Assembly: GCA_030649735.1 (NCBI GenBank)
Contig: JAUSFL010000035.1
Location: 1-64,000, forward strand
Source: Candidatus Iainarchaeum sp.
GTDB taxonomy: Archaea > Iainarchaeota > Iainarchaeia > Iainarchaeales > UBA10191
Direction of reading: 5' to 3'
DNA: 64,000 nt
Shown here: positions 37,267 through 37,624 of the stretch, piece by piece
Numbering within the stretch: the stretch's first letter is position 1
How the letters are laid out: every line of letters starts with the position of its first letter
Translations under genes and position numbers: made by a program
Notes under the pieces: model-generated
Database searches by the model: none
The model's input: only the letters and a program-made list of their open reading frames with translations
Told to the model about the DNA's origin: nothing

Positions 37267-37293
37267 AATTAACAGTTAAAAATTGTCGTTAAA

Positions 37294-37394
37294 TCAATAA
37301 AAACCTTTGTTCGCCAACTGTCCAGCCAGTTGGCATCTGGGAATGTGCGCTATCTTGCGATAGCGCGGTAATGCTTAATTCAATAAAAACCTTT
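37294..37394 (+). repeat. 15-bp direct repeats TCAATAAAAACCTTT flanking structured element copy 1
   Basis: 37294-37308 and 37380-37394 are identical. Confidence 0.6.
37314..37375 (+). repeat. structured repeat element copy 1 (stem, conserved loop, then 8-bp hairpin)
   Basis: CCAACTG-TCCAGC-CAGTTGG-CAT-CTGGG-AATGT-GCGCTATC-TTGC-GATAGCGC-GGTAATGCTT. Confidence 0.65.
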
Positions 37395-37435
37395 CCGCAC
37401 TCTACTTGTAAATAAGTTCTAGAATGAGATCTTTT

Positions 37436-37509
37436 GGGGCTGTAGTCTAGCTTGGTTAGGACCTATGCTTTGGGAGCATAAAACCACGGTTCAAATCCGT
37501 GCAGCCCCA
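37436..37509 (+). tRNA. tRNA-Pro (anticodon TGG)
   Basis: GGGGCTG/CAGCCCC acceptor, GTC/GAC D stem, TATGC-TTTGGGA-GCATA anticodon arm, CACGG-TTCAAAT-CCGTG T arm. Confidence 0.96.
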
Positions 37510-37570
37510 AACCGCCCAGCCGGTTTATGTCTGGGCATGTGCGCTATCTAAAGACAGCGCGGTAATGCTT
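37509..37570 (+). repeat. structured repeat element copy 2, immediately 3' of tRNA-Pro
   Basis: AAACCG-CCCAGC-CGGTTT-ATGT-CTGGG-CATGT-GCGCTATCTAAAGACAGCGC-GGTAATGCTT. Confidence 0.65.
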
Positions 37571-37590
37571 TCGATCGCGCGTGCCAAAGT

Positions 37591-37624
37591 ATGTGCGCTA
37601 TTTTTGATAGTGCGGTAATACTAT
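37591..37624 (+). repeat. structured repeat element copy 3 (second hairpin half only)
   Basis: ATGT-GCGCTATTTTTGATAGTGC-GGTAATACT. Confidence 0.6.

Follow-up and report, generated by a model that had tools for sequence, protein, structure and literature searches.

REPs are short simple palindromes that are tied to a Y1-type RAYT transposase (PMC3116915), and they have been reported across archaea (PMC12306157). REPs and REPINs resemble the element described here in being short, dispersed, intergenic, hairpin-forming, non-autonomous and sometimes arranged as inverted pairs (PMC3116915), whereas the present element combines a pseudoknot with a hairpin, carries long flanking repeats and targets tRNA borders, and its copy-rich genomes are without an intact Y1 gene. 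Transposition of tRNA introns on a large scale in Thermoproteales was reported by Fujishima et al. 2010, as described in PMC4033280. According to that source, related sequences occur at the canonical position as introns of different tRNA genes, a likeness to the present family; in contrast, the present family is also found outside tRNAs, at gene and tRNA edges and in both orientations, and has a conserved pseudoknot. Direct repeats near introns, including archaeal ones, have been reported in general (PMC11782384). At the ends of IS200/IS605 TnpB guide RNAs, a hairpin loop likewise pairs with a strand further downstream to give a pseudoknot, and a second hairpin is present (PMC12558985), but the present element has flanking direct repeats, and TnpB was absent from four of its carrier genomes (G013, G026, G033 and G040).

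The three repeats around tRNA-Pro in the window (the whole stretch of 64,000 nucleotides analysed here) are members of a previously unnamed family of DNA elements of about 65-90 bp in one archaeal order. REPINs, mobile archaeal tRNA introns and TnpB guide-RNA ends are the nearest kinds, and each of them either differs in one or more of the features tested or accounts for only a minority of the copies. In the TnpB guide RNA ends, the order of the parts appears different from that of the present element. Integration by casposons or Cas1 leaves a long target duplication, and some casposons target tRNA 3' ends; unlike casposon or CRISPR systems, the ten genomes with the hairpin module (B) showed no match to Cas1 (PF01867), and no terminal inverted repeats were seen. 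The integron attC site is a folded single strand conserved by shape more than by sequence, at which flanking direct repeats are not expected. Its core RYYYAAC/GTTRRRY was not seen by eye in the element, whose copies are dispersed and not in cassette arrays. The target site duplication of about 13-37 bp is a likeness to classical MITEs, in which duplications are usually shorter; terminal inverted repeats, a classical MITE trait, were not seen among the listed copies, in which the 3' end was poorly defined. Unlike a SINE-like retroelement, the family occurred in genomes without a reverse transcriptase (PF00078, RVT_1), which was absent from the five element-bearing genomes tested (G000, the window's own genome, G013, G026, G033 and G040).

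Three copies were found in the window, at 37313-37376, 37509-37570 and 37583-37624, with tRNA-Pro amid them. The features were as follows:

37289-37308, plus strand, upstream direct-repeat copy of copy 1, TTAAATCAATAAAAACCTTT, 19/20 identical to the downstream one
37313-37334, plus strand, first stem-loop S1 of copy 1, GCCAACTG (37313-37320) paired with CAGTTGGC (37327-37334) around the loop TCCAGC (37321-37326), 8 bp including the outer pairs, family core CAACTG / CAGTTG
37333-37341, plus strand, linker GCAT and pseudoknot strand CTGGG (37337-37341) of copy 1, the latter pairing with loop positions 37321-37325
37342-37376, plus strand, hairpin B of copy 1, upper stem 37347-37354 / 37359-37366, GU / GGUA internal loop, 53.3 bits
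37375-37394, plus strand, downstream direct-repeat copy of copy 1, TTAATTCAATAAAAACCTTT, containing CAATAAAAACC
37435-37510, plus strand, tRNA-Pro (TGG), the neighbour gene, as called by ARAGORN (37436-37509 by Rfam)
37509-37535, plus strand, module A of copy 2, S1 AAACCG (37509-37514) / CGGTTT (37521-37526), loop CCCAGC (37515-37520)
37531-37535, plus strand, pseudoknot strand CTGGG of copy 2 (part of module A), preceded by the linker ATGT
37533-37570, plus strand, hairpin B of copy 2, upper stem 37541-37548 / 37553-37560, GGTA 37561-37564, lower stem GCAT/ATGC, 49.4 bits
37583-37624, plus strand, copy 3, hairpin B only, lower stem AGTAT (37588-37592) / ATACT (37618-37622), upper stem 37595-37602 / 37606-37613, 47.2 bits

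The element had a two-part architecture. Module A, an H-type pseudoknot, ran from the first strand of S1 through a loop of six bases to the second S1 strand, followed by a linker of 3-4 bases and the strand that pairs with the loop (helix S2). Module B was a hairpin in which an invariant GU/GGUA internal loop separated the lower stem from the upper one. Both modules were present in copies 1 and 2; copy 3 consisted of B alone, and no family-type first stem was recognisable in it. The stems, loops, hairpins and tails described in the original prediction were all located in the sequence, and the proposed pairing of the loop with CTGGG was possible in both copies (37337-37341 and 37531-37535). The hairpin was likewise kept in all three copies, with a single A.C mismatch (37546/37555) in copy 2 (37541-37560) and two G.U pairs in copy 3 (37595-37613), and the conserved GGTAAT(G/A)CT tail was present in 3/3 copies. 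Copy 2 did start at the tRNA 3' end, its first base being the discriminator base of tRNA-Pro. Features beyond that description were the lower stem under the hairpin, the 20-bp repeat around copy 1 and the lack of a recognisable S1 in copy 3. In copy 1, the linker GCAT overlapped the two outer S1 bases. That the copies exceed chance is indicated by their model scores of 47-53 bits, obtained with all three among the 14 training sequences of the B model, and by a further copy elsewhere in the genome.

The flanking repeat of copy 1 was identical at 19 of 20 bp, compared with a best of 17 and a mean of 13 in 300 shuffles. By inference, CAATAAAAACC in its downstream copy is a possible promoter box of tRNA-Pro. 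The B covariance model found a fourth copy in the window's genome on another contig beside tRNA-Leu, whose 3' end is repeated there in degraded form. The sequence GCGGTAATAC (37612-37621 and the family consensus) resembles the 530 loop of 16S rRNA, which we take to be probably a coincidence.

The compensatory changes first seen between the window copies were upheld in dozens of further copies, and covariation clearly continued. In the B alignment, which consisted of 115 copies fitted to the covariance model, 91.8% of the cells were paired and 12 of the 13 pairs showed two-sided change; the covariation score was 0.503, against 0.181 for shuffled and at most 0.137 for slid controls. The A alignment contained 47 copies of equal frame, gapless, chosen because their S1 pairs and their linker is purine-C-purine; S1 was paired in 94.3% of the cells, a figure inflated by this selection, and the pseudoknot helix, on which no selection was made, in 86.8%, with two-sided changes in 5/5 pairs. 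Its covariation score was 0.668 (0.228 shuffled, at most 0.21 slid). When loop and strand were taken from the same copy, 36 of 78 copies had a pairing score of 4 or more, against a mean of 14.1 and a maximum of 22 in 200 permutations, a comparison in which S1 was picked jointly with S2 and the observed pairing was thereby somewhat favoured. The purine-C-purine linker was present in 57 of the 77 copies with a found S1. Its first base followed the third S1 pair, being A with A-U and G with G-C in 44/47 copies, and its third base tracked S1 pairs 5 and 6; each association was reached by 0/1000 permutations. Both stems, the pseudoknot and the coupling between linker and S1 are thus supported by covariation.

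The original prediction had left the choice between a pseudoknot and two mutually exclusive folds. Since the linker covaries with S1 pairs, as expected for a linker lying in the S1 groove, the exclusive folds are disfavoured, and we read the covariation as pointing to a true H-type pseudoknot. G.U cells did not exceed A.C cells (24 vs 32 in the B stems, 13 vs 16 in A), so RNA is no more plausible than single-stranded DNA in folded form, and the data do not reveal which nucleic acid or strand is selected; the missing G.U excess is mild evidence against one RNA strand being selected.

The covariance-model search of this genome and its relatives, with a B model built from 14 sequences, found about 120 copies in both orientations in 10 of the 87 genomes of the class, and 115 B matches lay in the fetched loci. 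The copies per genome numbered 41 in G033, 39 in G040, 20 in G026, 8 in G013, 4 in the window's genome, 3 in G016, 2 in G037 and one each in G041, G055 and G059. The copy-rich genomes were mostly incomplete MAGs; G013, with its 8 copies, was 99% complete and in one contig. The B pattern with a fully paired stem was found in several genomes of the order and the A pattern in ten. At the A-only loci L069-L081 (CTGCCCAGCCAGTTGACATCTG), some of which abut tRNA ends, the second hairpin was different, often TTCGC...GCTC, and these matches look like a sister subfamily. The tail CATATAATTTTGAATTACAAT followed hairpin B in some lineages. Near an A-type copy in G001 (L035, contig C115), GTAGTGCCTAACT was present three times in a short stretch.

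The B model gave zero matches in 23 genomes of another archaeal phylum, an empty answer that alone proves little. Among the Rfam covariance models, only tRNA and archaeal SRP RNA scored above threshold and no family matched the element; at a lax threshold, the window gave nothing except tRNA. A strict B-pattern scan of a collection of genome contigs returned one archaeal match and two Ruminococcus matches, the latter looking like chance. A viral origin was rejected: across 2.9 million viral contigs the B pattern matched 117 times, never with an 8-bp stem, and these matches looked like chance, as did 68 matches to the A pattern, of which the only one with a long paired S1 (L200) was without family context. 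The phage records contained weak tRNA-like or short matches only. No description of the family was found in the open-access literature, a scope outside which preprints and most subscription journals lie.

The copies were mainly intergenic by simple ORF calls and lay in both orientations, many beside protein genes and some in tRNA introns. Flanking direct repeats scoring at least 12 were found around 12 of 113 copies, with 0.8 expected from swapped flanks, and repeats with the upstream end anchored at S1 and a score of at least 14 around 4 of 57, with 0.2 expected. The repeats were mostly 16-24 bp long, with a range of about 13-37 bp; examples were those of 24 bp (L331) and 23 bp (L316) in G026, 20 bp in G033 (L313) and at window copy 1, 16 bp in G041 and about 37 bp in G059. 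At L318 (G040), an inverted pair was flanked by a 20-bp duplication of the tRNA-Gln 3' end. A clear direct repeat persists in only about 10% of the copies, so with this range of lengths the cut is poorly defined.

The empty sites were few and came from different species. Upstream of alaS, one TTTTCATGCAAAAA was present in G026 and two, around the element, in G033, a sister species of the same genus; the inverted pair at L332 was present in G033 and missing from G026. G001, of the same genus as the window's genome, was without the window copies and had one CAATAAAAACC box at the tRNA-Pro locus, a comparison resting on 69% flank identity. The tRNA-Pro of G001 (L020) seemed to carry an intron, and that of the window had none. 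Another short hairpin, some 50 bp long (AACAAAnnGGCAAAAGAAACATT...TTGTTCACTTGCCnnTTTGTT), was found inside S1 of several copies (L303 vs L323, L281 vs L289, also L340, L351, L310, L355 and L356); since it was present in G033 but not in the G026 ortholog, it is probably mobile too. The original prediction had tied the elements to the tRNA-Pro locus. Instead, they were dispersed in both orientations at 1-41 copies per genome, direct repeats flanked some of them, and relatives had empty sites. The transposon-like spread that it had named as speaking against it was thus found in the distribution. The distribution and the flanks show a mobile element and not a tRNA-linked RNA gene, a reading rejected on account of the dispersal of the copies.

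The S1 start was at most 4 nt away from a tRNA end or a tRNA exon/intron border in 9 of 55 copies, against 0.09 expected; these 55 had a defined S1 start and came from outside the window, so that window copy 2 is an extra case. All 9 pointed away from the exon and 0 inward. Reverse-oriented copies also abutted tRNA 5' ends. In the tRNAs for Thr(CGT), Gly(TCC) and Ala(CGC) called by ARAGORN, the introns started with S1, and further tRNA introns contained B copies. In several tRNAs the element started the intron at the 37/38 splice site; about 6-9 copies were at the tRNA intron position and most were elsewhere. Among the 38 copies with an upstream ORF, 7 had an S1 start between -3 and +5 nt of a stop codon on the same strand, compared with 2.4% of random intergenic positions. 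The border precision could be owed in part to selection. One copy lay close to the 3' end of an archaeal SRP RNA (L305, 322-598, minus strand).

Searches for a mobilising enzyme covered several families. No intact match to the Y1 transposase (PF01797) was found in G000, G013, G026, G033 and G040, and G033 contained a fragment. Serine recombinase (resolvase) was not found in G013, G026, G033 and G040. Tyrosine recombinase had at least one match in 15/15 genomes searched, carriers or not, and exactly one in G013, which may be the chromosomal Xer. Two TnpB-family matches were seen on contig C44 of the window's genome. A shared transposase among the neighbouring ORFs was rejected, as these belonged to ordinary families only and no mobile-type ORF recurred beside the copies.

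We consider it probable that the copies belong to a non-autonomous mobile element, only about 65-90 bp in size, which is confined to one archaeal order and would be recognised by its fold, a proposal built on the observed covariation, both-orientation dispersal, flanking repeats, empty sites and precise, polar borders. Because no mobilising gene was found in the searched families, the cut, the enzyme and its recognition of folded DNA (or RNA) are what we infer. The conserved core would be a folded single strand, with the H-type pseudoknot (S1, S2 and the purine-C-purine linker) at the 5' side followed by the GU/GGUA hairpin. A candidate recombinase or integrase would recognise this strand and cut the target, either A-rich DNA or the edge of a tRNA or other gene, with a stagger of mostly about 16-24 bp; the pseudoknot end would be joined to the side that keeps the gene intact, and a direct repeat would be left behind. 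Copy 1 would have been inserted upstream of the tRNA-Pro promoter region, duplicating 20 bp of it; copy 2 lies against the tRNA-Pro 3' end, and copy 3 would be a decayed neighbour.

A pseudoknot with covarying linker bases is typical for folded RNA, many copies follow immediately, and on the same strand, the 3' ends of tRNAs, an SRP RNA or stop codons, and some are within transcribed tRNA introns, as would suit a functional structured RNA (a small RNA, riboswitch or ribozyme) that was spread by duplication and acts in the transcript, e.g. by helping to process the 3' ends of tRNAs and mRNAs or to stabilise them. However, tRNA 5' ends are also abutted in reverse orientation, either orientation occurs relative to the neighbours, the G.U cells of the B stems (24) are not above the A.C cells (32), some copies form inverted pairs, tail to tail, and both direct repeats at the flanks and empty sites were seen; we regard this explanation as unlikely. 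Smaller still is the chance that the copies are mobile archaeal tRNA introns that spread via RNA splicing and reverse transcription and also escaped into intergenic DNA. The element does open the intron at the 37/38 splice site in several tRNAs, and large-scale intron transposition has been reported in Thermoproteales (Fujishima et al. 2010, via PMC4033280), but the majority of copies are outside tRNA introns, the copy-rich genomes are without a reverse transcriptase domain, and copies in reverse orientation lie at tRNA 5' ends.

The frequency of A.C mismatches, as common as G.U, would be expected from DNA-level correction of the arms, as in a passive palindrome that is kept complementary and spread by hairpin-templated repair or template switching with no dedicated enzyme; the inverted pairs L318 and L332 and the failure to find an enzyme in the families searched would also agree with it. 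This process does not account for the invariance of GU/GGUA, the covarying linker, the polarity at the borders (9 outward, 0 inward) or the flanking repeats of about 20 bp, and we rate it marginally below the escaped intron, as very improbable.

Tentatively, and with a good deal more doubt than for mobility itself, the family may represent a new class of mobile element, in which single-stranded DNA or RNA of <100 nt, folded into a pseudoknot, is inserted by a fold-recognising, possibly host-encoded enzyme that makes a staggered cut of ~20 bp at tRNA ends, tRNA intron borders and gene ends, in genomes without the transposition enzymes tested. If this is true, the integration enzyme would lie outside the families tested here, and small archaea would host a mobile element whose best-kept property is its fold, with a pseudoknot showing base-triple-like covariation. 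The element would be a source of new tRNA introns and new gene ends, and it would offer a testable route to the gain of tRNA introns in the evolution of archaeal tRNAs.
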